This document shows positions 1-54,104 of a DNA stretch of 64,000 nt, one piece after another. Location: NCBI GenBank assembly GCA_013368325.1, contig JAACJK010000011.1, positions 280,228-344,227 on the forward strand, in the 5' to 3' direction. Each line of letters opens with the position of its first letter. Position 1 is the stretch's first letter. Source of the DNA: Ephemerocybe angulata (Eukaryota; Basidiomycota; Agaricomycetes; Agaricales; Psathyrellaceae). The notes under the pieces are model-generated. The model had not been told where the DNA came from, did not search any database, and saw only the letters and a program-made list of their open reading frames with translations. Position numbers and translations under genes: made by a program.

Positions 1-3000
1 GGAACTATTATCTGGAGGAAGCCGAACGAAAGGCGAAGGAACAGGCGGACTTGTGGAATACTGGCTTGGATTCTCTGTTGATCTTCGTGAGCCCGATTAA
101 ATCGCTGCAAAATTCCCTGGTTTCTGAGGCTGTTTAAGGCCGGTTTGTTCGCAGGGATAGTCTCATCCTTCGTCATCGACGCACGTTCTGATTTACAGAC
201 CGACTCGGACCAACGTCTACTCACTCAAATCCGCGAGGTGCTAGCCCAAGGATCTGTCAACCCACCCGAACGTATTTCAGTCGCATCGAATTGGACGAGT
301 GGGTTATGGGTTCTCAGCCTCTACACCACCCTGTTCAGTGCAATCATGGGCGTGCTGGCGAAGGCGTGGCTTGCAAAGTTCATTCCGGCAACGACGCGCC
401 GGGAATCGAAAGATGCCTATAACCGATACAAGCTTGATAGACAGTCGGAACGCTGGCACCTCAAGGAAGTCCTCATCCTCGTCCCCCTTCTGGTCCAAAT
501 TGCGGCATTCCTTTTCCTGGTCGGCCTCGTTCTCCAGAGCCATGCTGACAATCCAACCATTGGGAGAACCCTTCTCGCATTCTGCATATCTGGCGCCGCT
601 ATATATTTCGTCATGACTTGCATTCCCTTTATCGTCCCTTCCTCACCTTTCAATACGCCACTATCAGAGCTCTGCGACGGATTGTTTTCTCGCAAGAAGG
701 AGGAGGAGGGGGAGCCGTCAGCCCCTTTCAAGAGGGATATGAATGAGGGCCTAGGCGAGATCTTCTATACGAAGTTAATCAAGTCGCCCAAGCCTGCACA
801 CGTCGATGAAGCATTTCTGGAGGTCGCGCTTCCTGTCTTCCACGAGAAGTGGACCGAGGAATTGTGTAAGAAGGACGCGCCGCAAGTCCTACTCACTCGA
901 CTCAGGCAACGTGCGACTGCGAGGACAGACGACGCGCTCGAACGGGACGAAACCCTTTGCAATCATTTGTTGGCGCTCCTGAAGTTCGTAAACTACTACG
1001 AGAAGAAACTCATCAGCGAGAAAGACCTGGGAAAGGTACAGGCGCGATACCAAACTCTCGACACTGTCTTGAGGACATCCCTTGAACCCGGTAACCCTCT
1101 ACATCGCTGGAACGAGCTCCCTGAAGCCCTTCGCCCATTGCTGTTCGGGCTTCGAGCCCAGGTCATCATGCTCCTCAACATGAAGGATCTACCCAAAAGT
1201 CCTCCCCGCCCAGGGATTCCTGATACACCCACCGACTTCAACATGAACGAACTCCCAGATCGACCTTGGGATATGGCCTTCCAAGAAATTCGATCGACAC
1301 ACAGGCTGCACTTCGTGCTCGGTGCCTGCCGAGGCCTCGCAGAAGGGCCCCCCATCTTGAAAACGATCAGCTCCTTCGTCTTGTGCCTGTGCCTCGCTAA
1401 AGGCAAGCCGTCTTGCATCCCGCCTTTGCTTTCCCGTTTTGAACTAATCCCTGGATCATATAGCAACGCTTTCTGCATCTGAAACCGGGCGAACGAGCGA
1501 ATGGGCGGCGAGCCTTACCCCGAGCGAGCGTGCCAATGTCGATGCTCTGGCGTCGAGGTATCTTACAAGGCTGTACGAAGTGGCAGGTACGTCTGAAACT
1601 ACTATTCATATATCACATATTGATATTTGTCAAAGTGAAGGGATGGGAGGAGGTGGCGGCAGATGCCCTGTCAGACTTGTGCTCGGTTAAAGTACCTCTT
1701 GAAGAGATCGATTCGACTCAACCACACGCAAGGCTATTGAGGAGCCTCATTGTCAGTCTATCACAGGCTAATCATGCCCTGCGGATTCACGCAATCAAAA
1801 TGCTCAAGCATGTGTCCTCCCCAACTCGTGCGTACAGCGTGTTTTCTTGTTCGCAACTTCAAATTGTTGATCTCCAGAATAGCGAACCTGTTCAACGGAA
1901 TCATCGACGCTTCCATCAAGAGCATCGCGAGCATGACGGTGTATGACGACCAGGACGTTCGCGATGATGGTCTCGAACTACTCACAGAGCTTGCGAAGGC
2001 GGATGGTGAGGCTGAGTCAGACTGTGCATCACTGCGACAAGCCATTTATTATCCCTGTAGAAAAGATGTGCGGGCAAATCAAAGCAGCCCTCGTTTCGAG
2101 CATTCAATCTGGTTTGACGAAGTACGAAGAACTGCCTCGCATTCGCACCATAACATTTATCCAGACTTTGTCATTAGGTACGCAGCCCCCTTCTTCAATG
2201 GCCCTGACACTGAGCGGAGAGCGTGCGGTTCTGGTATCAGGAGGACCGTTGTACTCGACAGTGACCGAGGTCATTCCGAATCTTGTAGAGGTAGCCCTCG
2301 ATGAATCATCCCCCGACGATGTTCGTCTGCCAGCCATGCGATTGGCACAGAAACTTTGGAACAATGGTCAGTGCTTGTTTCACTCGCCCGGCTCCCTCTA
2401 ATCGCTAAAGTGGCATCGTGCAGGCCTCTCAGAAGTCAAAGACGGCCTTTTGAACTATCTTAGCCTCAGCCTCGATGGAAGCGAGTTTAACCGTCGCTAC
2501 AACTTCTTGGTCGCGCTCAAAGATCTTCAGAATCGGAAGGAATACAAAGCAGGGATGGAACGACCGCCGTACACGTTCCCGTGGCTATTTCCTGCCGATT
2601 TTGTGGAAGCTGTCGTTACGTCTGAGTCTATATTCGAAAAGATCGTCAAGGTCTCTATTCACGATGAAGACCGGAGCATTCAGGTTGCTGGGCAAGAGCT
2701 TCTTAAACAGCTGGCTAATGATGGTGAGAGTCTGGTATTACAGTTATTTTCTAGCATAAATGACTAAAAACCACCTATTTAGACCGCTTTGTCTGGGATC
2801 TGAAAATCGATGCGCTCAAATGGATCGAGACGGCGACTGTGCTTCCGAGTTACCGTTGGCGTGTTCGCCACAACGGCGTCTTGGTGTTGGAAACCTTTAT
2901 CAAGCGTCGTAGGTTTCTCACCTTGTCAATCACGCTAACTTTGTCAGTAACACATTGTTTTCAGTTGAGACTGAAAATAAGGACCTCTTGAAGAAGCTCG

Positions 3001-6000
3001 TAGAGTTGGCCCTGAAGGACGACGATAACGACGTCCGGACTGCTGCTTTGAATCTAATTTCTTCAATCTGCAAGGACCGCGGCCTGAGTGGTACGTGTAC
3101 CTGCCTCTATCCACAGCCTCCTTTTCTTCGCTGATAATCTGTTTTTCGTAGATGAAGGTTTTGAATACATAAGGGATACTATCCTGTCCTATGACGCTCT
3201 GCCAGTCGACGAATCGTCGGAAAACTCGGAGCTTCCTCCTCCTCCTGTGCCGGGTGATGCCATCATCAGAGAGCCGTACTCGTCGATTTGCAATTCGTGG
3301 ATACCTCTGATATGCACCATCTCGAAGCAAGGTGGGTAATTTGGATCGAGGTTGAAGATGTTGCTGACGCAGAGCTTAGTCGCTTTCCCGGATGGCATCC
3401 CAATCATTATACGTATCCTGATACGGGGAGAAACCAATGAAACTCGGAAGCAAGTTGTTGACTTATTAACATCGGAAGAAACCATTAGTACGTTCTCTAC
3501 CCTATATAGTCCTCGGCGTCACGTTTAGATCAAGTTAATCCTCAATGCAGAACCCGAAGATTTGGATGTTTTCGTCAACGCCATACCGCGAAACCTTGAA
3601 CTAGCTCCGGGGAAAAGGGGCGGATGGGAAGAGACGGCAAAGTGGGTGCGACTACTGGTAGCACTCCTCGGTCATGGTGGGGTCTCTCATGGGTTGGTGA
3701 CACGAAAGCTGACCGAATTGTAGGTAAATTCGAGGAACCGGTCAAAAAGGCTCTCGGCGGCGTCGTCAAGAACCTTGAAGACGCGATCAAAGGCAATGTT
3801 ATCGAGGAACCTGAACCAAAGGAGGAACCTGCAGCCAAGGACCCTGATTCCAGCAGTACCAGTTCCGCGTCGGATCATAACTCTGAAGGTAACTTTTGAC
3901 CCTCCCGATTACGACTTTGCAAGAATGACTGTGCCCTCGTAGAAACACATCCAGAAAATACCTACATGGCCGAATCGTCGCTGTCGCTTCCCATGCGTAA
4001 GTATTTAGTGGAGCTGAACTGGCTTGAACGGAGATATTGGGTCGACGTCCTCGCGAATACCGCTGGCCACTGTATGTCCAATTAGTATCACAATCATGCG
4101 CCATTCGTCTCTAATCACTTCCGCCAAGTTCCTAAACAGCTTGCGGAGGCGCCTGGCATTATCATACAAATGGCGATTCACGACCCCGACAGCGACGTCC
4201 GCAATTCTTGTCTTCAATCAATGATAGTTCTTGCTAAGCATGGTGTGTTTTCTCCCCCAACCTAGTATTGGGCCGCTGCTGGAAGCTAATTCTCTTACTT
4301 CAGTTCATTCCTGCAAGCTCATATGTACAGAAGTCGCCCCTCATGTCGCCACATTGCTTGAGGATAGAGACTGGAACGTCCGTTTCTCTCTGGCCCAGTT
4401 TCTCGGAGCCCTGGGCAAATCGCCTGACAGTGAGTGCGCGGTCAACGGGGGCAGTATGGAATTGATAATCGTATTGTATTCAAGTCACTCTCCCTGAGGA
4501 TATTGTTGCAAAGCTCGTAAAGCAGGCGGTGGAAGACAGAGACTACGACTGTCGTTCAGAGTTCGTCAACTCTATGGCAATCTTAGCCTCGGTCGAAGGG
4601 GAGCGAGACCAGGGTCAGTGGATTTCTTCATATACTTCACTGGGACTCACAGTACGCCTACCACCGTAAAGGTTCGGGAAGATACGCTGAGGCCATGAAC
4701 CAGGCCATTCACACCCATTTTGAAACGGGGATCAAGGACGACAGCTGGAAGGTGCGGCAGTCTTGGGTCAAACTTGTTGGCCCACAGGTCAAGGACGGTC
4801 AGTGCCTGGTTGATTCAAAGCAAGACCGCAGACCGATTTGTAGCCCCTTCAGCCGACTTCTTCGGAATCAACAAGATACTCGACGCTGCAATCAAAGACA
4901 CTGATCCCGATGTCCAAGCAGACGCATTACGGTGGCTGCAAGAGTTCCTCAAAGACGGTAAGTACTCAGTCCCATATTTACCGTCCTAAACCCCATGTGC
5001 ATTCCCTCTTTAGCAAAGCTGCGAGACTCTATGGCATCGACGATTGGAAAATCACTTGCGTCCGCATTCAAGGATCCCAACCTCTGTGACACTGCCGTCG
5101 CGGCTCTCAAGAAGTTGACACTTCCCGGCTCGATGGAGGGGAAGCCATCAGCAGGTACCGACTGTCCACCAGCGAATCTAAGAGTTTATATCTCACTGAT
5201 TATCGCGAATCTAGATGCTGAAAGCGATGTCCCAGACAGTCACAAAACGTGGATCCAGATCATCCTCCTGCTTGGGCGTAACCGTATGTTCAAAGTGGCT
5301 TCGCGATGGGCCTTCTCCTGATATCGCTTATATAGCGGAGTTTCAAGCAGTTCCGAAGCTAGTGGAAATAGTGGTCAAGGACGTGCCATGGGATTTCGAT
5401 TCTTTGGATTCACTTTTTCAGAAGGGTAGGCACTGAGCGCTGTCTTTTCAGCTCATTGTTGACACACGTGCCTCAGTCAAGCTTCCCGAGCCAATTCAAA
5501 ATGTGTTACCTCGATGCCTAGAATCCGCGCTCAAGAGCGACGTCAGCTATGAGGTTCGGTCAGCAGCTGTCAGTCTGCTGCGCCGGTTAATCGGTAAGCT
5601 GGGTCAGAATTAAGGAGGAGACCGAAGAAGAGAAAGCTAATTTTGCGTTCCAGAAAACGGGGACTACTACTACGGCGACTTATTAAACAAGGCCAGTATG
5701 TATAATCCCAGTTTCTTCGTGACAGCATTGACTGACAGTGACGCAAAGATGACGGGACGATAGTCACTCGCCTTGCAGACATATGCATCAAGGACGGTGA
5801 TGGGGACCTGCGAAAAGAAACACTTCGATTGCTCAAGTCCATCTTCGACAAACGTATGTTATCCTCCTAAGAAATCGCAGTGAATGGCTAACATACTCGA
5901 CGTGCAGAGCGTTTCCAGGATGCTATTAAAGCATCCTTGTCGAAGGTCATCGAATCCGCCATGAAGGAGCCCGAATCTGCCAAATATCGCCCCAATGCAA

Positions 6001-7514
6001 TCGAGGCAATCCGCAGCCTAACCGACGGCAATGCAGATGGTTAGTCTTCATTTCGATGTAGTTTGCCTTGTCGCTAACAGGGCACGGATCTAGACCAGTA
6101 CGACCGATTCAAAGAAATAGTGTCCCCATCCATTTCGCCGTTGATGAAGATGACGCTGCTCGTCACCGACAAGGATCACGAGAATCTCAGGAAAGAAGCT
6201 GAAGACATCCTCCTTGACAATCTCACCGCGTCTACTACTGAAAGTGAGCCTTCATCGACTTGAACCTGGTATCCATTTAACAGGAAATTAGCGAAACTGA
6301 ATAGGGATGTATTGACCATGATCCCGACGATGATACCTACAATTACCGTCGAAGGTAAGAGCATTGCACTGCAACTTGCAGAAGGCCGTAAGTCATTTCA
6401 AACCTTCCACCGCTACGACGTATTCTCTGATCCTTTCCTCAGTTGTCATCTCGGACGATACTGCCGCATCTATCGCTCACGCCCTCGCACCTATTCTGCG
6501 GAATGCGTCATCTTTTGCCCGTGCGACTGCAATTGAACTCTTGTCGAGAATCTATTCGCGCCATCGTGAGTATTGAAAATGTCTCCACCCCGAGACCTCC
6601 GAAGGCCCGAACCTCTAAATCTTGTTTCCAGGACAATCCAAACCTCGACTTATCGAGTCAGCCATTCCAGAAATCATTACTCTGGCGCTCGATGACAAGG
6701 ATGATGTGGGAGGTATCCGAGCGACAGCAATCCGCCTCCTTGTGGCGCTTTCGGGGGCTTCCGCAGGTGAGTTGCGTATTTCTATACCGTGCGTCCCCTT
6801 TCTGACCAAATCTCGAAAGATACAAAAGATTCTGAGCACAACAGCACTTTATCATATTCAACGAGCGGCCCCGTCCTGAAGCAGATCACGCCCCTCGCGA
6901 CAAAGTTCATGACGCTGTTGGACAATGAGAATCTAAGGCCCTCGGTCGTCGAATTGCTCTCTTTGATGTCGACAGAAGCCGCAGGTGCGTTGCGTTACGA
7001 TGCAGCCTTTTATCGATCTAAAGATCATACACCGCAGTGCGAAAAACTATATCACTCCAAATAATCACGCTAGCGTTCGGCCCAGAAAGCCTCGCCCTCG
7101 TTGGCCATGCTGAACTTCTGGCTAGATTAATCTCAGATGGTACACTCGACCACTTTTTTTTCTGCGTTCAACTAACTCACCTCTCCTACAGGACGCTTCG
7201 CAGATGAACCCACAGACCATGTCATGCTTTTCCTCGCTTCGGCCATGGTGACAAGACCGAAGCTTGCGCCTCAACGATATCAAATCCTGACGGCGCTTTG
7301 GTGTCGCTACGGCTCCAAGGTAATGGCCTACGACGCTGACGCTAAAACTCTGAAGAACAAAGAACTTGTCGATTGGTTCACATTTGCGCTATTTGGGCGG
7401 CATGCCACGATCCACGAGGTTCCCGCATGGACTGCACGTACTGGGATTTGGCTTCCAGTTACAGTTGTACCCCCAACACCAGAACCGACTCCTCTCGCCG
7501 CTTCAGAAACCTAA
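1..7514 (+). CDS. DUF6535-domain protein with HEAT/ARM-like repeats (5' end outside window)
   Basis: Function unknown; the family is abundant in Agaricomycetes. The window opens inside the N-terminal DUF6535 domain. Exon 1-86 reads to LDSLLIF and joins at 139 to AGLFAGIVSSFVIDARSDLQ, followed by hydrophobic segments (about 310-385 and 465-640) that look like membrane helices. Downstream come many short exons of alternating amphipathic helices with ARM/HEAT character (for example GWEEVAADALSDL and IPNLVEVALDESSPDDVRLP). Splice sites checked for frame: introns 87-138, 1403-1463 (GC-AG), 1587-1635, 1828-1882 and 2006-2060; about 20 more of similar size follow. The stop is at 7512-7514. The last exons (LFLASAMVTRPKLAPQRYQI) contain no stops, so the gene looks intact. 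The domain call is from pattern memory. I infer a membrane-anchored scaffold. Confidence 0.72.
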
Positions 7515-7775
7515 TGTAGTTTAACCTTAAGACTTATCGTGATTGCTGTCTACTTTACACGGTTTGAGCAGTGAACTCAATGCTCTGCCGGAAACTACCA
7601 TGGCTCCCTGTGTGGCTGCTAGAGCGTGAGAGTTCCTTACTAACCGGCTACGACGCAAGTGGCTTGAGCGCTTAACCAACCTTAGTTCAACTCCAGTGTG
7701 CTCCCAGCGTCGAAGTCCTCCGCGATTTGACCGTCCTGCGATAAATATCATCGTCGCTATATCACTCCACTCGGT

Positions 7776-7999
7776 ATGCAGCTGGAAGATACCCCTCTTG
7801 GTCACCTCTTCATCACCAACGACGAACCAACCTCAAGCGAGGTTGAGCGGTTGCATCGGGGCGTGGGCAGAATAACGAGGAGGATGGGCAAGATTGGGAC
7901 GATCTCTTTGGAAAAATCCGTAGCTCTGGAAATTCAGGAACTTGAAGGCAAGCTACAGCAAATCCGGGGCGCTCTTTCGCCCCTGCGGAGGGTTCCCAT
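7776..7999 (+). pseudogene. F-box gene, 5' half, interrupted by the 8000-14097 element
   Basis: The ATG at 7776 opens a frame with the usual N-terminus of an Agaricomycete F-box-like protein: a short HLFITNDEPTSSEVERL stretch, a predicted coiled coil (LEIQELEGKLQQIRGAL), then SPLRRVP, which normally leads straight into the F-box helix. At 7999 the frame leaves the family and runs into unrelated sequence. The missing F-box continues at 14107 in the same frame. The two halves share the 9-bp GGTTCCCAT. Without the element the open frame would be 545 codons including the stop. Proteins of this type act as substrate adaptors of SCF ubiquitin ligases (family knowledge); here the gene is broken. Confidence 0.85.
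7991..7999. repeat. Left target-site duplication of the RecQ/DUF6589 element
   Basis: GGTTCCCAT, identical to 14098-14106. It is part of the F-box reading frame (codons for R/V/P/I), so it is ancestral host sequence duplicated on insertion. Confidence 0.9.
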
Positions 8000-8015
8000 T
8001 AGTCTGAGCCGTACC

Positions 8016-8073
8016 TGGCGCCAAGACCATAGGAGGGGAGGGAGTTTGAAAATTTGATGTCGGCCGCGCGGCC
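8016..8073. repeat. Left-end palindromes of the element
   Basis: Two perfect palindromes lie within 75 bp of the left terminus: TGGCGCCA at 8016-8023 and GGCCGCGCGGCC at 8062-8073. They are candidate recognition or structural sites. They do not match the right-end hairpin, so the two ends are asymmetric. Confidence 0.6.
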
Positions 8074-8225
8074 ACGAACCAAGAACACGGCTCAATCCCT
8101 AATTAGTGTGATTGCAAGCGCGCCTCTAGCAGAAATACACGTCTCTTGCCTTTACACTCACAACCTAACCCTCCACACTCTTTTTATACCCTTTCTAATG
8201 ACTATATACCCTTTATAACTTATCT

Positions 8226-10306
8226 ATGGCGACTTCTGGAGAAGAATCCGACCGGTGGCTCCACGACGGACTCTGCGACGCGTTCAAGATTGAGAAACTT
8301 CGACCCTTCCAGTTTCAGCATGCCCTGGACCTATACAAAGGAAAAGACGTCTTCCTGACCATAGCAACGGGTGAAGGAAAGACCACCGTACTCCTTTCGC
8401 CGCTTATTGCCGCGAAATTGAAGCTTGAGGAGGGTATTGGCATTGCTGTTGTGCCGACGAAGGCCCTGGCCCAGCAATTGGTGCGCACACTTCTCGCTTC
8501 TCGCACATTTTGTCAATTGACCTCTAACGTTGACCACAGGAAAAGACTGCGAGGGCAGTAGGTCTCGACGCCCTCTCCGTAACTGAGGATACCCTACGAG
8601 AAGCCGATGCCCTGGGTAACGACCTTTTCAAGGTCCTCGCGCTGGATGGTAGAGTACGGCTCGCCATCATGAGTCCACAGATGCTCCGAAGCCAGCGCTT
8701 TAACAACTGGGTGAAGGTCAGCACTATCCGGAACTCAGTACGGTGGATGCTAGTCGACGAAGCGCACCTCGTTCTCGAGACTACAAGCACATTCTGTGTT
8801 CCCTACGGCGACATAATCCTCATGCGAAGCCGGCTACCCTCATCCGTGGTCTGGTGTGCCGTGACTGGCTCCGTCACCCTCTCCAACGCACCAAAGGCCG
8901 CCGTCCTCTTGGGATTTCGCCCAGGTCACTACGTCGACGCACGCTATCGCTTGGACAGACCAAAGATCAAGTACATCCCGCGCATTCTCCAACATCCCTT
9001 CACTACTGGCGAGTTTCTGGACACCTCCTTCACCATCTCTCCAACTATCACTTCAGCCCAAGACATCACCCCCACACTCATTTTCACTGATACAATCGCA
9101 ACTTCACATGCCATTATGTGTTTCCTCGATACCCTAATACCGACATCTGTCCCTAACCGCACCCAAATAATCAAACTTTATAATTCTCTCATGCCTATCG
9201 AGTATCGCCAAAGATTTGTGCAAGATATCACCACCGGAACAACACTACGTATCGGAATCGTGACGGATTCGCTCACGTACGGACTCGATATCCCCAACCT
9301 CCCTCGTGTCATTGTCTTTGATTTGTGCGCCTCGCCCGAGATCATGAAGCAGAAGATGGGCCGTTGCGGGAGAGATGGAAAGCCTGCCACGGTCATCACC
9401 TACGCCCCATCTTGGGTACAGGAAGTGTCAGGAAGCGAGTCCCAAACTCAGAAAGCAAAGGACGAAGCTAAACGCCGAAATGCATTACCTCCAATGCTTC
9501 GGAAATGGTTCAATCCCACCTTGCTAGAATGCCCGCGGTATACGGACAACAAGTACTACGGCGACGACTTCATTCAGCACGACAATTGCTGCGTAGTCTG
9601 CGATCCAGGGCCCGAGCAAGACACTGACCGAGAAATCATCGACGGATGGAAGGAGCGACTGGAGAACCAGAAATCCGGCACAGAAAGCACGAAACTTCCG
9701 CGGTCCGACGGCACGTACCGCGCACTTATTCCGGCAGAGCGTGAAGCGCTCAAGCAGGATCTGATTTCGTGGCGCTCGCGGATTTGGAGAACCCTTCGAC
9801 GGGCTGGAAGCGCAGCAGATGCGCACACTCCCGCAGAGATCTTCTTCCCTTCCCATATTCTCACATCCCTCGTAAATCACGCGCACATATGCTCTGAGTT
9901 TTCCCGGTTCAAGCTCACGGTGCAAGACTGGAAACACCTCGACACGAAGCACGCCAAGAAGCTATACAAATTTCTTGTAACAAAGCTCGTACCGTACAAG
10001 AAAGACACGCCCGCCAAATCGGTAGTCACAGATCCCAACAGCCGTCAGCCACTCCAGGCTGTGTCGAACCCCGATCGCAACCTTCCAGGAACTTCAGCCC
10101 CAGAGCAAGACACACGCACAAGAATAGCACTGTCAGGAAACACAAGGCTCGTGCTCGGTGCACACCCAGCAGTCAGCAGTACTACGGCACCGGCAAGTAC
10201 TGTAGGAGGCACAAAGCGAAAGGGGAGCTTAACTGGTGTGACAACAACCAGGTTATCCAAGCGGACTCGTTTGGCCAGGGGCAAAGAGAACATTGATAGT
10301 ACTTAA
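8226..10306 (+). CDS. RecQ-like DEAH ATP-dependent DNA helicase (element-encoded)
   Basis: Predicted superfamily 2 helicase that unwinds DNA 3' to 5' at the cost of ATP (family knowledge). Two exons, 8226-8480 and 8540-10306, joined in phase 0, give 673 aa. Motifs in order: FQFQHALDLYKGKDVFL (motif 0 region); ATGEGKTT (Walker A, with GEGKT in place of the usual GSGKS); VPTKALAQQL (Ia); MSPQML (Ib); VDEAH (motif II); TGSVT (III); GIVTDSLTYGLDIPNLPRVI (V); KMGRCGRDGKPATVI (VI). A cysteine pair NCCVVCDPG in the RecQ zinc-binding region follows. The C-terminal 150 residues are low-complexity and basic. The gene lies wholly inside the mobile element, points at the DUF6589 gene, and shows no stop or frameshift. 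A RecQ-type role in element excision or copying is inferred. Confidence 0.88.
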
Positions 10307-10313
10307 TTACAGC

Positions 10314-13300
10314 TTATTCTAAATTACCGCCGACAAATGAATCAATCGATGTTTCCCCTCCTTCCATGATGATGGGATTGGATGGAAGCGTAGCCCGATT
10401 GCTGTTAGCCTCCGAATCGTCCATCCCCTCTTCCGCACCTGGCCCATCGTTCACAGTCCGCCTGATAAATGTATCCAGCTTCCCAGAGGAAAGAATGTCG
10501 ATCCCCTTCGCAAATTCGTCGATTACTTCATACGGTTGAGTACGACCTGACTGGTGAGCAAGGACTTTTTCGCTTCGGTAGTGCTCTCCCAATATGTTGA
10601 TGTCTGTTTGTTTTTCGGGGTCGGAGTGCGAGTAGCTCTTCTTCCGTATCCCAAAGACACCGGGAAACAGGTCACGAAGAAGACTGAATCCACCGATGTT
10701 AAGTCCAACGGCTTCCGCGAGATGCTTTGAGTCGAAACTGTGGCTTTTGGAATTGAACAGGCGCTTCAACCAGAAATTGAAATGCTCTTGGAGTAAGTCC
10801 AGCTCAAACCAATGTCCGGGTTTACCTGACGGATTGACGAGGTAATTGTTGAGGACAGCCTCTTTGAGCCCTTCAGAAAACTCGTAGAGGAAGTTGCACG
10901 CAAGTTCCAGCATCTCGTTTCCATAGTTGGTACACCCAGCACCCCAGAAGGAGAATCGGAGCAGCTAAATTAAATCCACCCGCCGCCGCACGTCAGAGTC
11001 AATTGATTTGCCGTAGTTTGTTTAGTCGCACCTTTATAACTTCAAAAACACGCCCAATATCCCCTTCTGCAATGGCAGCACAGACTTCCAGATACCAAAA
11101 GGTGGCGCGCATGAAGTTGATAGTGTTCGCGAGTGACTCGTCTGGCTCGAGCGCCTGTTTAGGCGCCTGACTCCGTGATTGATCTGAACCGACCTCTGAG
11201 CCACCGGAATCTTCGGATTCGGACTCTGATTGACTGTCTAGGCTCGAACCAACTGGATCCTTCGCTGCTTCGGCAGCAGCAGCTGTCAGGTACTTCTGGT
11301 AGACCTTCAAGGCCAGGGTACGGAGGTACTCGAAGTTGCACCCTGCGAGTTCTGCATTGGCGGTAAAACATGCTTGGAGCCCATCAAGAAGTTTCACGTT
11401 CGCCTCATCTTCCTTCCCCGTAACCTTCTCGCACTCTAGCCTATAGAGAGTGTTTAAAATACATGTCAGAATGGAATAAAGTTTAGCTTACCTCAAAGCA
11501 GATAGAATCAGTGCCTCAAAGACGTCTTCTAGGATGTGATGAGCCGGATAGAAGTCACACTTTTTCTCGTTGAACTTTTCGCGTCGCAAGGCGTGTATAT
11601 CGTGCCGAAGGCCGTTAACTCCTTCTCCGACTATGGGTGACCAGTTCATCCGGATTATGGCCTTTTGCAAGTTCCATTTTAGGTGCCAGAGCTGAATAAT
11701 CGGGAGGACCCAATCGTGGCGGTCGTAAGCTGTGTCCGTCTTTGCCATGTACCGCTTGAGTTTGCGCATCCGGTCAATTGTTAACTGGTCCCCGCAGACC
11801 ATGATAACCCAGCGATGGGTCCACGTTGGAAGTATTCTGAGCTGTCCGATCATGAGATTATGGAGTACATCCTGAGTGCCGGCGGTCGTCGCTTCGTTGA
11901 TCGCAGTCGGGCGCATTGGGATAATCGTGCTCTTGCGCAATCGTAAGGGGTGAACGGCACTCTCCTTGGAGAAGAAGAGGTCCACGTCGCCCTGGAACCG
12001 CTGGAGGGCTGGCACATGCTTAACCCATACTCGAAGAATAGTGCCCACCCCGGTCAATTGAATATGCTCCCAATTGATGTCCTTCCAAAGAACGTCAACC
12101 GTCAATTCCTGGCGCCGCTTTTTGCGCTGAGCATCGAGTAGTGGTTCTGAGCTGAGGGCCCCCGGTGGGACGTCCTCCAGTTGAATCAACGTAGCTGCGG
12201 TTCCGCTTTGCATTTCGTCATTGTGGTAAGATGTGTGTTGCCAGGCTCGGCGCATTTTGTTCACGTTATCGAACAGGAGGAGGAAGGTGGGCTGTCCGTC
12301 CTGCAGGAGGCAGCCAAATGCCTGCAAATATGTGTTGGTATCGCTTGCTAGGATGTGTAGAGTTGCCAGGATCGTATCGTAAGCCACTGTGAGTCCCATC
12401 CGACCGAGTATCGAAATGATATCGCGATTTGCGTTGCACGTAAAGAGAAAGATTCCGATGACTGTTTGAAAGACGATCGCATATTTGTAGCGAAAAAATA
12501 GAAGCATTAGGATCGTGACGGTTACACCCTGAAAGATATTAATACGGGAAAGTATTAACCATGTTACAAGAACTCACGAGCCAAGGATCTCGCCGAGTAT
12601 TTATTGGAACACCTGAGATGGATGGAGGGGCTGTCCCGAGAAACGGCGATGAAGTCGGCTTTTCTGGGAGCGCATCCTCGTCTTCTGAGCAAGTCGCGAC
12701 TTCATCCTGTTCATCCTTGTCGCTTTCTCCCGCGAGGCTCTCAGGAAGGTACTGTGGTGGACTGGAGGGCGGCAATGGCGCTTGGATGTCATCCGATGAC
12801 TGTGGAATTACTCGTGCTTGCTGAACTCGCTTCCTGGTGTTCTCGTTGACAGCGACAGTCGAGAAGATTGTGAAGAGGGCGGGTGCCGTTGTGGCGAGTG
12901 TTTCTTGGCTAGACGTAATGCTCCAGGTCGTCAGATTGCTCCAGGTAAGGATATCGCGAGGTGCTCGAGTAAATCCAAGCGCAAGCTTTAGCAGCTGCTC
13001 GCTTTCTTCATCAATAACCTCTACAATCTTTCCAAGGCTCCAATTGAGCAGGGCGTGCTTCGTGCAAGTATACGCCGGTAGTTCTTGACTGTAATTTCCA
13101 TCCAAGCGAACCGAAGGAGGTAGGGCATACGACGGTATTGTAAACGGAGGGGCGTTGAGTGCGACCTTGCCATCGAGATTGAGTCGGGACTTCTCATGCC
13201 GAAAAAAGTGTTCGACAATGGCGACGGGGTGTTCATCGGGTTTCTCTCCTTGAGCGGCCAGAAAAGACTTGATTCCCTTTGCAACACCAGTGTATTGGGA

Positions 13301-13888
13301 GAACGAGTACTTCCCCGAGAAGTATACATCGAATAATTCGCCGAAAGAGGAGAATCCAGCCTGACGCATGCACCTGTACACAATCGCCGCCCTCATCTCT
13401 GCATTGACCTTCTCTGAGTGCGGAAAGACATAGCTCGAGCCTAGCCGCCACCGATCGTCCCTGCCCTTTCCGTTTCCTTTGTAGATGATCCCTCGGAACA
13501 ACCCAGCAGCAAAAAGCTTCTCCTCGCCATCCCGCAAACGTGAAAGGTCGTCGACAGTGGGCGAGCCTGCGCGAGCTAGAACTGGAACAGCCGGTGCAGG
13601 GGAAGGGGGACCGAGTGACGGCGGGATTGCAGCCGAGTATGCGGGCCATGGGGTGGCGTAAACTGGGTAGGGGTAGGGGTAGTGCCCAGAGGGGACTTGG
13701 CCAGGAGTTGCAGGGAAGTGAAGGGGTGAAGGAGACGCGACGTTCCAGGGGGAAGAATGGTACTGGGTTCCGGAGACGGGAACGGGCTGCGCGATGGGAA
13801 TTTGCTGGGAACTAGGGTGGCGCTGGGGTGTCCTGAATGTGTTGTATGTGTTCGATTCTTCATCCGTGGCCCCAGGGGGTGGATCCAT
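10314..13888 (-). CDS. DUF6589-domain protein, candidate transposase of the element
   Basis: Four exons on the minus strand, each junction checked for frame: 13888-12578, 12528-11492, 11440-11032 and 10964-10314, giving 1,135 aa. The first about 110 residues are proline/tyrosine-rich and disordered. A conserved globular part (ERIR-type helices, KGNGKGRDDRWRLGSSYVFP) follows, then an acidic linker. The central block holds LLFDNVNKMRRAW and VMVCGDQLTIDRMRK; these two aspartate motifs are the family hallmark and resemble the spacing of a nuclease-fold active site (inference). The last exon has WFELDLLQEHFNFWLKRL and a final acidic tail. DUF6589 has no established function that I know of. Its presence with a helicase between target-site duplications argues that it is the mobilising enzyme. 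Stop codons of the two element genes are 7 bp apart. Confidence 0.83.
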
Positions 13889-14030
13889 ACTGCTAGATGG
13901 GCGGACGATACAAGCGCGCTATCTAAATCGCCCCTATCAGGGCACCATCAATCTCGGCCCCCTTCGGCATGCTGACACAAATCATTTATTCAAACTCAGC
14001 CCCCTCCCACTGCCAAGACCGGGGTTATCG

Positions 14031-14086
14031 ACCAGACTCTATATCAAGTGAGAACGAACTCTTCTTCTCAGATACTAGAGTCTGGT
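14031..14086. repeat. Right subterminal nested hairpin of the element
   Basis: ACCAGACTCTA (14031-14041) pairs perfectly with TAGAGTCTGGT (14076-14086), 11 bp. Inside the loop TGAGAA (14049-14054) pairs with TTCTCA (14065-14070). The hairpin ends 11 bp before the element's right terminus. The hexamer AGTCTG of the outer arm also occurs at the left terminus (8001-8006). Confidence 0.75.
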
Positions 14087-14097
14087 TTGCGAGACTA

Positions 14098-14106
14098 GGT
14101 TCCCAT
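14098..14106. repeat. Right target-site duplication of the RecQ/DUF6589 element
   Basis: GGTTCCCAT, identical to 7991-7999, directly following AGACTA and running on into the F-box codons for IEVLGDIF. Confidence 0.9.
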
Positions 14107-15517
14107 CGAAGTTCTTGGAGATATCTTCAGAATCTCGCTGCCCGACGATACCGCGAACAAGGCAGGCCGGCAGGCGCTCATTGCGCTTTGCCTTGTGTGC
14201 CAAAGGTGGCGAACTGCGGCATGGGCTACCCATGGTCTCTGGACGCGCCTCGAACTCCTCTACCGACCTGAAGGGTTTTGTCATCAGAAAGCGGCCTTGT
14301 GGTTAAGCCGCTCAGGAACCTTTCCAAGGTCCCTCCGCTTACACCACGATGGATTAGATCTGGAAGTCTCAGCATCGTGCTCTGGAAAATGCACATGCAC
14401 CAAGCTGACTTCCGAGTTGGCCAAATTCCTTTCGTGTGGTCCGACCCTTGAAGAATTGGCCCTCGAGTTTTCGAACACCATTTGTTGGCTGAGGCTTATG
14501 TGCTCACTGCAGTGCCTCAGGGCCTCGAGTCAAGTTAGGTCCGGGTCGCAAAGCAGCACAATTTCTCCGTGGGACTCGCTGCGTTCCCTGTCGATCGGAT
14601 TCAGCTCCAAGGGTTGGCCGACGCATCCTCCGAGTTTCGCAGAGCTTCCCCCAAACATCAGGACCTTCCGCTTCTACCTACCAGACGGACCGCGATTTAC
14701 CCCGACCTTAAACTTTAGACGGGAGTTCCTACAGTCCCTGGCGGAATTCGAGCTTCGCTGCAACTGGCATTTTTCAGCCATTCACTCCATGCTCAAGTAT
14801 TGCGAAAATGTAGAAGTCGCAACCCTGTGCTTCAATGCAAGCGGATTTCACCATCTAGGGCTTGACACAGACCTACCCCTCCATAAACTGAAAACTCTCC
14901 GTCTACGCAATGTTTCCTCGTTCGAACTCCTTCCCTTCCTCGCGCGTGCAGAAAATCTTTCCTACCTCGACATCAGCTTCGAAGATAAGTCGCGAAAAGG
15001 CTTCCAGCTCATCGATCTCGACGATCTAGTTGTCGCGCGATGGCACATATTTGTTAAGACTCACGACCATCTCATCACCCTCCGCCTTCACGGCGCCGTT
15101 ATATATGAAAACGCGCTGGAGGAGCTGTTTGACCCCGCGGTGCCCTTCAAAACCCTTACCCACCTTACAATGGACAACATTGTTTCCACTACCGAAGAAG
15201 GAAGAGAGTTCCCCGTTGATAGTCTAACCGACGGGGCATTTCCCTGCCTCCAGTCTCTCGAACTCCTCGAAGTGTCCGGCGAATTTTCTTTAAACAGGCT
15301 ACTCAACGCTGTAGAGATACACCAGGCCCGTCTGAGTCGTGCGCCGAAGCGAGGGAGTACTTCTTTCAATTTGAAGGTGACATACTACAAATCTCGCTAT
15401 GGACTTTTCTCGGACGTATACCCTGTTCAGCACAGCACGGATATTATAATTCGTGTAAGGAAACTGGTTGAGTCGGGTATAGTAGTAGATATAGGACCTA
15501 TGTATGAGCATCTGTGA
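14107..15517 (+). pseudogene. F-box gene, 3' half (F-box and LRR-like body)
   Basis: Continues the frame broken at 7999. With the duplication codons it starts VPIEVLGDIFRISLP, the F-box itself, then ALIALCLVCQRWRTAAWATH and about 400 residues of LRR-like leucine-spaced segments (for example LKTLRLRNVSSFELLPFL), ending at the stop 15515-15517. No internal stop or frameshift appears, so the insertion is the only visible lesion. It now lacks its own start codon and coiled coil. It belongs to a different F-box subfamily from the pair at 18329 and 20329. Confidence 0.85.
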
Positions 15518-20328: not shown

Positions 20329-21963
20329 ATGGACCTACAGACCTTGGAACAATGTGTGCGGAAAAACCTGGCGTTAGAGGCTAACGAACAAGTCGTAGCC
20401 CAGGAGAAGGAGATCAAATACAAGGACGAGCTGTTATCATGGCGAAGGAAGATCGAGGCGACCGAGATCCTCTTGAACGCTCTCAAACAGAAGGCCGTTG
20501 TCGCAGAGCACAATCGGAATATGTGGTCGAGCATCCTCGCTCCCATCCGCCGCCTCCCAGCGGACGTCCTCATCGAAATCTTCACTCTCGCATGCCTCGG
20601 AGACGTTTTCCACCTCTTTCCGGATAGTGACGCCAATACCCCTGTTTCGACGAGCCATAGTCTGATCCACGTCTGCAAATATTGGCGGGATATCGCGCTG
20701 GACATTCCACGAATCTGGAACCACTTCGTCGTCGTGCACCCGGCTGTCTTCGACAAACGCCGGTTTCGCTGGGAAGACCTTTCTGGTGTATACGGGAAGA
20801 ATCTGACGCATATTGACCTCTACCTGCTGGAGGGCATGCTCTTCAACAGAGACCCATCGCTGGACCGGAGTATCTTCAAGTATGCGCACCAATACACATC
20901 CCTCCGACTAGAGGCTCCCGCTACGCCTCTATGGACGCCGTCGACGGGCATACTTCAGAGGGAGTATGACATGCCGCTCCTCGAAGAACTCGTTTTCAGA
21001 TGTCGAAAAGACGAACCACATGTAGTAACCTACCTGCATAAGGACTTAAACTTCAAAGCACCAAGGCTGAAGAGGCTCTCGGTATATTATTACCCTACTT
21101 TGGAAAGTTCCGAGATCAGGTTCCCCTGGAATCAGCTCACGCACTTATTTCTTGGGTCCATGGATTGTGATTTAGACGGGGAGCATGCCTACGACCATTT
21201 CTTCCCCTTCCTCAAGAAACTGGACAATATCACATATCTAGGGCTTAGTGGCGTCAATATGGGGAGAGCCTATAGTCGTGCCACAATCCCGAAGTCGATG
21301 GTTGTGCTCTCCAAATTGCGCCACCTCGAAATCCAGGATTTTGACCTTTTACTCCTGCAAGAAGTTCTGTATGGAAATCCCGGAATACGTAGGCGCGACT
21401 TTCTAGGTCACATATCAGCCCCCGCACTTACCACATTCGACCTTTTCCTCTCAAACAACCGTTCCGAAATCTTGGAACGGGCGTTCCAACATGTCGCATC
21501 ATTTCTGGGAAGGGCCCCTCTCCTCGCAAGGATACGCGTCGTAGGCTCCACACCTCCAACAAACTGGGCCTGTTTGGGTGACCCCGACTATCCCATATTA
21601 GCCTTCTCAGGTAGTTCCCAACAATTTGAAGACATCGCGGAAGGCAGCGACGCCACGTTCACCCGCCACGCAGCAGTCCGCGAGCAACCCCTTAAAAGGT
21701 GGCCGTTGGGCGTGTACACAGAGGACCATTTCATCGACCGGTTCTTGGAGAGAGGAGACCCCCTTTTCCAAAGGGCTGAGGCGGAAAGGGGTGTTGATGC
21801 GTCGGGACATCGGGATACAGGAAGTGAATCGGAACGCAAGGCTAAGCTAGAGAAGAGGTACGAGGGAGAAGACACTCGAAACATGATGCGTAAGGTCTTC
21901 AAGTTGCTTGGGCAGAAACACGGAGTTGCGGATGGGGAGAGGAAAGCATATTTTGCACTTTAA
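20329..21963 (+). CDS. F-box-like/LRR protein 2 of tandem pair
   Basis: Single-exon gene, 544 aa, from the ATG at 20329. Coiled coil (YKDELLSWRRKIEATEILLN), F-box APIRRLPADVLIEIFTLACL at about residues 70-89, then SHSLIHVCKYWRDIALDIP and WNHFVVVHPAVF. The LRR-like body and C-terminus (HFIDRFLERGDPLFQRAEAE, VFKLLGQKHGVADGERKAYF) match the neighbour. A product of tandem duplication; both copies are intact and divergent enough to be old. Likely SCF adaptor; the substrate is unknown. Confidence 0.85.
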   Translation: MDLQTLEQCVRKNLALEANEQVVAQEKEIKYKDELLSWRRKIEATEILLNALKQKAVVAEHNRNMWSSILAPIRRLPADVLIEIFTLACLGDVFHLFPDSDANTPVSTSHSLIHVCKYWRDIALDIPRIWNHFVVVHPAVFDKRRFRWEDLSGVYGKNLTHIDLYLLEGMLFNRDPSLDRSIFKYAHQYTSLRLEAPATPLWTPSTGILQREYDMPLLEELVFRCRKDEPHVVTYLHKDLNFKAPRLKRLSVYYYPTLESSEIRFPWNQLTHLFLGSMDCDLDGEHAYDHFFPFLKKLDNITYLGLSGVNMGRAYSRATIPKSMVVLSKLRHLEIQDFDLLLLQEVLYGNPGIRRRDFLGHISAPALTTFDLFLSNNRSEILERAFQHVASFLGRAPLLARIRVVGSTPPTNWACLGDPDYPILAFSGSSQQFEDIAEGSDATFTRHAAVREQPLKRWPLGVYTEDHFIDRFLERGDPLFQRAEAERGVDASGHRDTGSESERKAKLEKRYEGEDTRNMMRKVFKLLGQKHGVADGERKAYFAL

Positions 21964-50550: not shown

Positions 50551-51090
50551 GGAGTCAGAATCGATCAAAGCTTCATTCGTGATCAAGCTCTCGAGCGAGA
50601 TCCGTTTGTCCGTTTCAGATAGTAAACGAGTTCTATCAACATAGCGTCGAGAAGACCTGTGCTTGATAAAGGAAAAGGAGTAGAGCGACCCAGGAAGAAC
50701 CCAGTTCTCCCTAGTCAACCCGTTGGAACCCAACCGTCCGTTCGCGCGCGAACGAGAACAGCTGTTGCCGAAGCAGGAACAGAACTAGTTGCCTTTGATA
50801 ACTATCCCAGACCAGGGACAAGTTTCCAAGCACCTACGAACGCGAAAGCGAGAAGCAGCAGAGTCGTACCACCGGCTGTACCTCCTACCAGAACCCGCCA
50901 AGTCGCCCCGTTCACGAGAGGAAAACCTCGAACTACCGCACTCGCGCTAGCCTCGAAATCCAATCGCGTAGAACCCGCGCGCAATCCGAGACCAGAGAGT
51001 AGAGAAAGTTCGCAATCCACGAACTCCAGTCGCAGACGCCGTAGAAACCGCAGACATTCGAGTAGCAGTCAATTATCAACGACCCCTACC

Positions 51091-52524
51091 ATGGCTGGCG
51101 AACAAGCGCGAATCCGAGCCCTCGATCCTGATGCCACTGGCGAAGGATTCCCTGGGCTCCCTATGTCGAATAAAAACTTCCCGAATAGTTATTCCGCGAA
51201 TCGTCCTAAGTACGATTCTACGAAACCAGAGGAGTTCCTAGAGTATGTGAGACAAGTAGAGGATGTGATCAGCGCATGCGAAATCATCCCGGATCGCTTG
51301 AAGAAGAAGGCATTGGTTCACTTCCGAGATGTGTCGGAACAGAGTCTCGGGACAACGCTACCTGAATATAAAACGGGTACCTACGCGGAGTTCAAAGAGA
51401 AACTGTTCTTGTACCATCCTACAGCAGCACTGCAGAACCGTGGCAGTTTAGCCAGGATCCAGTTGTTGTGCGCGAGGCACCAAGGGATAGGTCTAGACGC
51501 GAGTCATACCTTATTGCAGTTCGCGCTGAAGTTCAGGGCCGAGGCAGCGAAACTCGAGAAGCATCTCATGAGCAACAATGAATTGGTTAACCTTTTCTTG
51601 GGCGCGTTAGATGAGCCTTTCCGTACGAAAGCATGGGAGGTACTCTCGAAGGAAGCCGAAACGGATGACACCCTGGAAGTCGTTGCAGGAGAGAAGATCA
51701 TTCCGTTTGACCGATGGATCTCGTGTGCTGAAAAGTTGGCGGTTCAGAGAGAACGCTTTGGAGAAAGGTTCGGAGGAAAGAAGGGAGGTATCTTGGCTAA
51801 ACCCTCGGTCGTCTCTGCCACCCCGAGCACTCCAGCAGTGAATCCCGCGGCCCCATCTAAGTTGTACGAGCCCGGTTGGAACGACGAGCCCACTGTGAAA
51901 GTCGAGTACGAGGACCTCAAACACCGAGTTCTGCAGGGAGTGAGTTCTTTGCTAGACCAGAAATTGAGTGCCATCGATAAAAAGATGATCTCTCGGGATG
52001 CCTACATGGAAACTCAACTCGAGGAATTGCGCGCTGGTCAAGGACGCGCTGACAAGTTCATGCGCCAGCCCAACAACTTCGCGGTTGCAACTCAGCAGAA
52101 CAATCCAGGCTCGAGAGGGGGCTTTGGATTCGGAAACAATACGAGAGGACCACCTCCCAGCGCGGGGTCGATTTGCTACTACTGTAATGGACAGGGTCAC
52201 TTCGCGAACGACTGTCAAGCCAAGCAGAAACATATCAGCGAAGGCAAGATTGTATCGGGACCGGATGGGACCTTCGACAAGCATGGTAATCGCCTGCGCA
52301 ATATGCCCGGCACCTCCTTGAAAGAGGTAGTAGACAAACTGCCCATGCCCACGGCTAGCCAGAACGTCCAGCACTACTATGATGACAGTGCGGACTATGT
52401 GCGCGATCAGTTCCATCAAGCGCCGTACCAGGAATCAGAAATGATTACTCGGGACGAAATGAACATTCTGCGAGACGAGATTTATCATCTGAGTTCCTTA
52501 AGGGAACAAGGATCGTCCGCGTGA
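51091..52524 (+). CDS. gag: Gag polyprotein (in-frame TGA at 52522)
   Basis: The ATG at 51091 begins MAGEQARIRALDPDATGEGF. The same frame is open upstream to about 50659 with a basic, serine-rich stretch, so an earlier non-ATG or spliced start is possible. Retrotransposon gag core: YDSTKPEEFLEYVRQVEDVI and ALVHFRDVSEQSLG. A CCHC zinc knuckle, CYYCNGQGHFANDC, packages RNA. The frame hits TGA at 52522-52524 but continues with good coding character to 52740 (KELQQEQKRSNQLMSQLVAA). The TGA is therefore probably a mutation or a readthrough codon. Confidence 0.85.
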   Translation: MAGEQARIRALDPDATGEGFPGLPMSNKNFPNSYSANRPKYDSTKPEEFLEYVRQVEDVISACEIIPDRLKKKALVHFRDVSEQSLGTTLPEYKTGTYAEFKEKLFLYHPTAALQNRGSLARIQLLCARHQGIGLDASHTLLQFALKFRAEAAKLEKHLMSNNELVNLFLGALDEPFRTKAWEVLSKEAETDDTLEVVAGEKIIPFDRWISCAEKLAVQRERFGERFGGKKGGILAKPSVVSATPSTPAVNPAAPSKLYEPGWNDEPTVKVEYEDLKHRVLQGVSSLLDQKLSAIDKKMISRDAYMETQLEELRAGQGRADKFMRQPNNFAVATQQNNPGSRGGFGFGNNTRGPPPSAGSICYYCNGQGHFANDCQAKQKHISEGKIVSGPDGTFDKHGNRLRNMPGTSLKEVVDKLPMPTASQNVQHYYDDSADYVRDQFHQAPYQESEMITRDEMNILRDEIYHLSSLREQGSSA

Positions 52525-52740
52525 GCCAAGAACATGCAGCCACAGGCCCAGTTCGTACAGAAACCAGTGGTCGAGCCTTGGAAGGAGCTCCAGCAGGAGC
52601 AGAAGCGGAGCAATCAATTGATGTCCCAATTAGTCGCGGCACTTACCCCGATGGTTGGGAGGAATCAATTCCCTTTGCAGACGCGGTCTGGAGCGAACCA
52701 AGGTGGCGAGGATGATGAGGGTTTTCTCAGCGACCAGTGA
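52525..52740 (+). CDS. Gag C-terminal extension
   Basis: Same frame as gag after the TGA: glutamine-rich helix (VEPWKELQQEQKRSNQLMSQ), then GEDDEGFLSDQ and a stop at 52738-52740. A slippery heptamer lies 12 bases before the stop. Confidence 0.6.
   Translation, partial: AKNMQPQAQFVQKPVVEPWKELQQEQKRSNQLMSQLVAALTPMVGRNQFPLQTRSGANQGGEDDEGFLSDQ
52719..52725 (+). promoter_or_regulatory. Candidate -1 frameshift site, gag to protease
   Basis: GGGTTTT with the gag frame cutting it as G GGT TTT, the canonical X XXY YYZ pattern. A slip of one base back enters the protease frame (GGG TTT TCT CAG), which is open from here. The gag stop follows at 52738. Confidence 0.6.
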
Positions 52741-54104
52741 AGGACACTGCCGTCGCGAAAAGAACCGTTGGTCGCGACAAGGCAAGCCCGGAGGTGCGTA
52801 ACAACAAACCCAGCAGAAAAGCCACGGTAGAGGATGAGGAAGACGATGAGGATGAGGAGCCAATAAAGAGAGGGCCGCCGTCAGGAGTAAAGAAGGTCTT
52901 TAATCCGCGAGCACCTCGAGGAGTGCGGTTCGAAACGGTAGAAGTTGGGGGGACGAGTCAAGCGGCGCCTAAGTTGAAAGACCGGCCCTTTGTACTAGTA
53001 CCACCACTCAAAACGACTCCGTTGAAAACACCAACCCGCGAGGATGTACAGCAAGGGAGAGAAGGTCGTTCCGATCCTAAAACAGCGTTGCCTCGCTTAG
53101 AGAAGAAGGGACCCGCGTATCAGCACAAGGCGCCTATTGAGGAAGCCGAGTCGCTGAGCCGCATCATGGAGGAGTTACTGAGTACGAGGTTCACTACGAG
53201 TCTTAAGGATTTGGCAAGCATTTCGGCACCTGCCCGCGAGTACTTGAAAAAGATGATAACCAAGAAGAAGATTGCGATTGATAATAAGGAAAAAGCCTCA
53301 GATCTCGAGTACCAAATCATCGCTCTCATTGACTTGATGTCTACTGAGTACAAAGCTCGCGCGGTACAAATGTGCAACATCTTAGAGGCAGAAGAGGAGT
53401 TGGGCGAAATGGAGATCCCCGATCCTGAAAGAGAAGAAGAGGAAGAACCCGGGACTGTAAGAGTTGAACAAGTCTTCATGCAGTTGGAAGAGCTGCCTCC
53501 CGCGCAAGTCTTTCTGGCACAAGGAATTCCATCGGTACCCGACGGAGCCTTCGTAGTTAGTGACCCCGTGGAGCAGTATCTAAATTCATTGGAAGATGGG
53601 GAAGAGCCGCGGCCAATTCTGGTAGCGCGTGAATCCGTGTCTCTGAGAACTGTCTACCCGAGTATCAATAAATCGGGTAAGGTAGAAGTCCTCTTGGATA
53701 CGGGCTCCCAGATCTGTTCCATGGATGCAGATGTGGCGAGACGTCTGGGAATCTCTTTCGATCCAGATATCGTCATTCACCTCCAATCCGCCAACCGAAC
53801 GACAGAAAAGACTCTAGGTCTGGCTAGAAACATCGAGTTCGACTTCGATGGAGTAACGGCATATATCCAGCTTCACATCATTCGCCGTCCAGCGTATGAT
53901 GTTCTTCTCGGGAGACCTTTCGGCGTCGCTATGTCAAGCGAGGTCAAGAACAACACCCGCGGCGAGCAGCAGATCACACTCTGCGATCCCAACACGGGCA
54001 AGAGGATTACCATTGCCACCAGCCCTCGAGGCAAACCACCCCCGCACGTTAGAAAAGAGATGCTTGACGCTCAAGAAGTAAATTTTCGAGCCTCGAGGAT
54101 CTGA
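52719..54104 (+). CDS. Protease-region ORF (aspartic protease)
   Basis: Frame -1 relative to gag, open from the slippery site to TGA at 54102-54104. The N-terminal part is basic and acidic low complexity. A helical segment follows (DLEYQIIALIDLMSTEYKAR), then a retropepsin-like domain with VEVLLDTGSQICSMDADVAR as the active-site DTG and YDVLLGRPFGVAMSS as the second hallmark. It would process the polyprotein. There is no ATG near the start, consistent with expression by frameshifting. Confidence 0.82.
   Translation, partial: GFSQRPVKDTAVAKRTVGRDKASPEVRNNKPSRKATVEDEEDDEDEEPIKRGPPSGVKKVFNPRAPRGVRFETVEVGGTSQAAPKLKDRPFVLVPPLKTTPLKTPTREDVQQGREGRSDPKTALPRLEKKGPAYQHKAPIEEAESLSRIMEELLSTRFTTSLKDLASISAPAREYLKKMITKKKIAIDNKEKASDLEYQIIALIDLMSTEYKARAVQMCNILEAEEELGEMEIPDPEREEEEEPGTVRVEQVFMQLEELPPAQVFLAQGIPSVPDGAFVVSDPVEQYLNSLEDGEEPRPILVARESVSLRTVYPSINKSGKVEVLLDTGSQICSMDADVARRLGISFDPDIVIHLQSANRTTEKTLGLARNIEFDFDGVTAYIQLHIIRRPAYDVLLGRPFGVAMSSEVKNNTRGEQQITLCDPNTGKRITIATSPRGKPPPHVRKEMLDAQEVNFRASRI
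54080..54086 (+). promoter_or_regulatory. Candidate -1 frameshift site, protease to pol
   Basis: AAATTTT read as A AAT TTT in the protease frame (GTA AAT TTT), again X XXY YYZ. Slipping back one base gives AAA TTT TCG, which is the pol frame, open without stop into the reverse transcriptase. The protease stop follows at 54102. Confidence 0.62.

Follow-up and report, generated by a model that had tools for sequence, protein, structure and literature searches.

A stretch of 64,000 nucleotides from Ephemerocybe angulata (contig JAACJK010000011.1, positions 280,228 to 344,227; the whole stretch is referred to below as the window) contains a 6,098-bp element with two genes, a RecQ-like helicase and a DUF6589 protein. 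Its most probable identity is that of an AcademH-type DNA transposon that moved recently, with DUF6589 as its DDE transposase. Movement shows in the sequence itself: copies at different sites are free of substitutions, insertions are flanked by 9-bp duplications, empty sites hold one copy of the target, and one deletion derivative has spread. A first-pass annotation, made from the letters alone, had proposed a new class of DNA transposon, which is probably not the case (see below).

The extent of the element, its TAGTCT and AGACTA ends and its 9-bp flanking repeat were exact to the base when the sequence was re-read (Table 1). The terminal inverted repeat of this family is only 6 bp. A 14-kb piece was scanned for left ends in the first 6 kb and right ends after 9 kb, with an 8-10-bp flanking repeat and at least 5 matching end bases. 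Just two pairs were returned, the window element (9 bp, 6 matching bases) and one 8-bp pair. Since, in addition, the same 6,098 bp recurs elsewhere with other duplications, these ends are not a chance pairing. Both genes were described as intact in the first-pass annotation, and both are open after splicing, lying convergent within the element. The helicase is 673 aa with one intron; the DUF6589 protein is 1,135 aa with three GT-AG introns, on the minus strand. DUF6589 (PF20231, E 4e-51, on exon 2) is the sole Pfam family over cut-off in the transposase exons. The helicase exons match DEAD (PF00270, E 9e-11) and Helicase_C (PF00271, E 2e-10), and their top PDB and NCBIfam matches are RecQ, every NCBIfam match being far below cut-off. 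Of the helicase motifs, we take MGRCGRDG to be motif-VI-like and the Cys-rich stretch to be RecQ-zinc-like. The Pfam scan of six open reading frames (ORFs) also gave a ResIII match barely above cut-off, located in the helicase, and no match to XPG.

The genome of the window itself (58.7 Mb, 232 contigs, denoted here by C-numbers) was searched for further copies, and seven of full length were found. Matches to positions 1-6098 of the element came as seven rows including the window copy, plus C139 as two pieces that overlap on the query. Six copies, with C139 outside the alignment, show zero substitutions against the window copy; the gap columns number 0, 1, 1, 1, 2 and 13 and are probably for the most part long-read indel errors. 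Thirteen two-ended copies were inspected for duplications, an old two-ended relative on C107 lying outside this set. Exact duplications flank 12 of the 13, and these are the 12 assembled copies: seven full (C139 included), four deleted and one deleted relative of ~70% identity (C220). The duplication is 9 bp at 11 of the 12 sites and 8 bp at one. The exception is the copy on C118 (16714-22800), which has no duplication; one of its flanks is that of the C192 site and the other that of the C151 site, which makes it a chimera, through ectopic recombination or misassembly. Deletion derivatives occur at four sites. One deletion (643/5331) is common to three of them, at three sites with different duplications, and the fourth copy has another deletion. 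The shared deletion therefore points to one deletion event followed by movement in trans, and enzymes from full copies would have moved these internally deleted copies.

Empty sites were sought by querying the genome with 12 joined flanks. Empty counterparts were found for four sites (C47, C184, C192 and C145), with 99-100% identity over 160-165 bases and at least 60 identical bases on each side; that of the C151 site has 89% identity. Partial matches of joined flanks lie on C120, C54 and C46. Such sites had originally been proposed as something to look for in sister strains, and the four came instead from the window's own genome. The assembly thus seems to contain these sites in both occupied and empty form, the pattern to be expected of two haplotypes. 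No empty counterpart of the window's own site was found when its joined flanks were used as query. With one copy of the duplication, these flanks join into a single open frame of 559 aa, and the insertion therefore seems to have split a host F-box-like gene; its right-hand ORF had no Pfam match.

These sites also bear on whether the two genes are an immobile host pair that was multiplied through segmental or subtelomeric duplication. RecQ helicases are described as frequent in the subtelomeres of fungi, and several of the copies sit on short contigs of 29-38 kb (C145, C184, C192 and C118) or close to where a contig begins (C47). However, the flanks have near-full matches only to their own and empty sites, except for C118 and two re-assembled sites, C119 and C128 (C128 repeats the C223 site, and contig ends truncate the copies on C119, C128 and C129). 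Moreover, the 1-kb flanks of seven copies gave ungapped identities of 0.22-0.29 in 21 pairs, a comparison that missed the flank common to C118 and C192. Exact duplications and empty sites already contradict spread of this kind. It was dropped after the flank comparisons and joined-flank queries, and we regard it as extremely improbable.

The association of the two genes extends beyond the window family. Ninety DUF6589 matches in the genome cluster into 39 loci, and a helicase match lies within 5 kb at 28 of the 39 (20 of the 31 outside the window's family), against ~0.9% expected per locus; allelic or duplicated contigs count here as separate loci. The pairing count joins the search with the window helicase to a second one and is a lower bound because only 30 of 113 candidates were scored in one search. 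RecQ-type helicases occur at other DUF6589 loci too. The helicase is thus a frequent partner of DUF6589, in line with the partnership that the first-pass annotation had supposed for the window pair. Its convergent arrangement holds for the window and some pairs and is not general, others being divergent by their match coordinates.

Two other DUF6589/helicase families share TAG...CTA ends and 9-bp duplications with the window element. In one, the inverted ends of copy 2 on C77 (216370-223073) start TAGTCTCATCCCC and extend for 25 bp or more, and the copy has a 9-bp duplication, GGACCTTCC; the ends were found by comparing the two C77 copies, of which copy 1 is without a duplication. The other, on C144, C143 and C24, has ends TAGACTCGCATCC and TAGGCTCGCGTCC, each bordered by the 9-bp duplication TACCAGTCC, and the site also occurs unoccupied on the same palindromic contig. 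Its ends were taken from two contig arms, and the case leans on reading these as the same insertion. The contig in question, C144 (28 kb), shows one insertion site both with and without the element and is probably two haplotype arms joined in assembly. Direct end scans around C151:422173 and C77:204195 found no ends. A candidate at C151 420087-426613 (8-bp CTCGTGAA; TAGCCCTG versus TAGTCTCG) was poor and was not counted.

The C77 DUF6589 protein is 98% identical to D9611_011724 (P0058) of E. angulata. Compared with the C77 protein as query, a protein of Crassisporium funariophilum (P0063) is 91% identical, with 55% of the query covered, and another from Crassisporium (P0143) is at 83%; other named relatives apart from P0058 are at 37-58%. 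Horizontal transfer or contamination is a possible explanation of the Crassisporium likeness.

Two D residues and one E are invariant in DUF6589; the proposed catalytic residues of the window protein are D524, D684 and E979, numbered after splicing. When a related DUF6589 protein was modelled, the structure proved similar to DDE transposases, with an RNase H-like core and a helical insertion; its best structural matches are the hAT, P element, Tn5 and RAG/Transib folds. In the window's own family, evidence for this fold comes from a weak match of exon 2 and from homology. Taken together, the pairing with a helicase, the shared ends and duplications, the invariant triad and the DDE-like predicted fold make DUF6589 very probably the mobilising enzyme, in agreement with the earlier suggestion. 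No paper naming DUF6589 was found in the literature searched, and the four text matches to PF20231 were judged unrelated by their titles and the starts of their abstracts; within that literature, a transposase role seems not to be in print. Protein searches gave 197 distinct relatives among the matches listed (57, 86 and 120 of 156 rows), two of the searches scoring only candidates that share most words. All those with an organism name shown are fungal.

With this in mind, the element was compared with described transposon groups. AcademH belongs to the Academ superfamily (Kojima 2020, as reported in the citing papers available to us). Its duplications are given as 9 or 10 bp and those of AcademX as 3 or 4 bp, the two being linked to a helicase and a nuclease respectively (PMC10045372, in part). 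DEAD and Helicase_C domains have been assigned to AcademH, KolobokH or Helitron; the same source describes AcademH as having few copies in Basidiomycota, Ascomycota and Mucoromycota (PMC10799480, in part). The window element agrees with this description in its encoded helicase with both domains, its 9-bp duplications, which recur in the two other families, its fungal (basidiomycete) host and, from predicted fold and triad, a DDD/E transposase. No difference from AcademH was found in this comparison of descriptions, which covered helicase domains, duplication length, type of transposase and host. The claim of a new class is not supported, because a helicase, a DDD/E transposase and 9-10-bp duplications in fungi make up the reported AcademH profile. 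Fungal 'Academ' copies have recognisable protein domains in 1,568 of 1,938 cases, for example DEAD and recQ_fam; they share PF00270 (DEAD/DEAH helicase) and recQ_fam with the present elements and are often annotated as host genes, but DUF6589 is not named in the passages available (PMC6416283).

A DDE superfamily distinct from Academ, independently paired with a RecQ-like helicase and making 9-bp duplications, is unlikely. In its favour, no sequence link to Academ has been shown, there is no Academ label among the 197 proteins listed (names are absent for many and cut short), nor any animal DUF6589 member among them that would tie the family to Academ, and the best structural matches lie with the folds named above. 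Against this, the element fits published descriptions of AcademH in its helicase, in the length of its duplications and in its fungal host. Within Academ, AcademX was rejected on the 9-bp duplications; its nuclease is XPG, for which the six ORFs gave no match. The hAT (Hermes) and P elements share the RNase H-like DDE core with helical insertion, but align with DUF6589 at 7-9% identity in VIA alignments. Their duplications are 8 bp and we know of no helicase in either. Membership was rejected on the 9 bp at 11 of 12 sites and on DUF6589 being alone over the Pfam cut-off. KolobokH or a related Kolobok, likewise a DDE transposase with a RecQ helicase in fungi, also has a rhodophyte counterpart with the helicase on the opposite strand, as in the window (PMC9587614, in part). 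However, Kolobok duplications are TTAA in the same source, whereas those of the window family measure 9 bp and vary in sequence, and the two genes here are separate and opposed. Kolobok is already contradicted by the duplications and is scarcely credible.

For the AcademH-type element, a mechanism can be proposed from the sites and the fold. DUF6589 would act on the TAGTCT ends and insert the element through cuts staggered by 9 bp, producing the duplications. Excision would be followed by gap repair and hence by internal deletions. The RecQ-like helicase would be encoded for a transposition step or for repair of the donor gap. It may act in gap repair by strand displacement, as BLM does in Drosophila once a P element has been excised, or else in strand transfer.

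The distribution of partial ends was uneven. Probes of 80 bp gave 14 matches for the left end and 34 for the right. Away from contig ends there are five remnants that consist of the right end only and are 100% identical to it. Their lengths are 365, 142, 56, 50 and 41 bp, and their positions, in order of contig and not of length, are C47:320611-320666, C146:157008, C190:211188, C190:278309 and C190:96719; the left probe found no left-only remnant away from a contig end. The 56-bp C47 remnant lies between exact copies of a 9-bp repeat, AGGTTTACG; no flanking repeat was found for the other four, two searched in stretches of 3.1-3.4 kb and two in 0.3 kb only. A further twelve, older right-only matches are at 82-95%, and the left probe finds no old copies, hence there is no balancing count. 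The remnants may be scars of one-sided repair; with a sample as small as five against zero, the asymmetry is suggestive only. A fuller version, in which DUF6589 elements form their own DDE superfamily whose self-encoded helicase drives one-sided gap repair, restoring donors and leaving right-end-only remnants, is decidedly unlikely. The one-sidedness would also suit a helicase as mover (Helitron-like or replicative), with DUF6589 as accessory. However, DUF6589 has the DDE-like fold and invariant triad, and 9-bp duplications and inverted ends are, to our knowledge, foreign to Helitron; such a mover is hardly conceivable.

AcademH is a known but little-studied group, and DUF6589 has so far been listed only as a protein of unknown function; the present reading would give a function to this large fungal family. 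Annotators could then assign DUF6589 and neighbouring RecQ genes to transposons instead of to the host. Moreover, substitution-free copies, empty sites and trans-mobilised deletion derivatives form a natural system suited to testing a transposon's own RecQ-like helicase.

Table 1. Coordinates of the transposon, its genes and the apparently interrupted host gene in the window.
Feature	Position	Strand	Remarks
Whole transposon	8000..14097	.	6,098 bp; also found elsewhere, between different duplications
Left 9-bp target site duplication GGTTCCCAT	7991..7999	.	read from sequence
Right 9-bp target site duplication GGTTCCCAT	14098..14106	.	read from sequence
Left terminal inverted repeat TAGTCT	8000..8005	+	ends identical in other copies
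Right terminal inverted repeat AGACTA	14092..14097	-	read from sequence
Helicase exon 1	8226..8480	+	Walker A (ATGEGKT) 8364-8384
Helicase exon 2	8540..10306	+	DEAH 8756-8767; MGRCGRDG 9356-9379; Cys-rich stretch 9527-9601
DUF6589 transposase exon 1	12578..13888	-	N-terminal part; no family match above cut-off
Transposase exon 2	11492..12528	-	PF20231 begins; proposed catalytic D codons 12268-12270, 11788-11790
Transposase exon 3	11032..11440	-	between second D and E
Transposase exon 4	10314..10964	-	proposed catalytic E codon 10785-10787
Host F-box-like gene, left part	7731..7999	+	joined flanks give one open frame; F-box read by eye
Host F-box-like gene, right part	14107..15517	+	joined flanks give one open frame

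Elsewhere in the window, a DUF6535 protein lies at 145-1482, and at 20329-21963 there is an ORF whose F-box-like match falls slightly under cut-off. A Gypsy-like retroelement occupies 50659-57850; three adjoining ORFs there give matches to zinc knuckle, aspartyl protease, RT RNase H and integrase zinc-binding domains.
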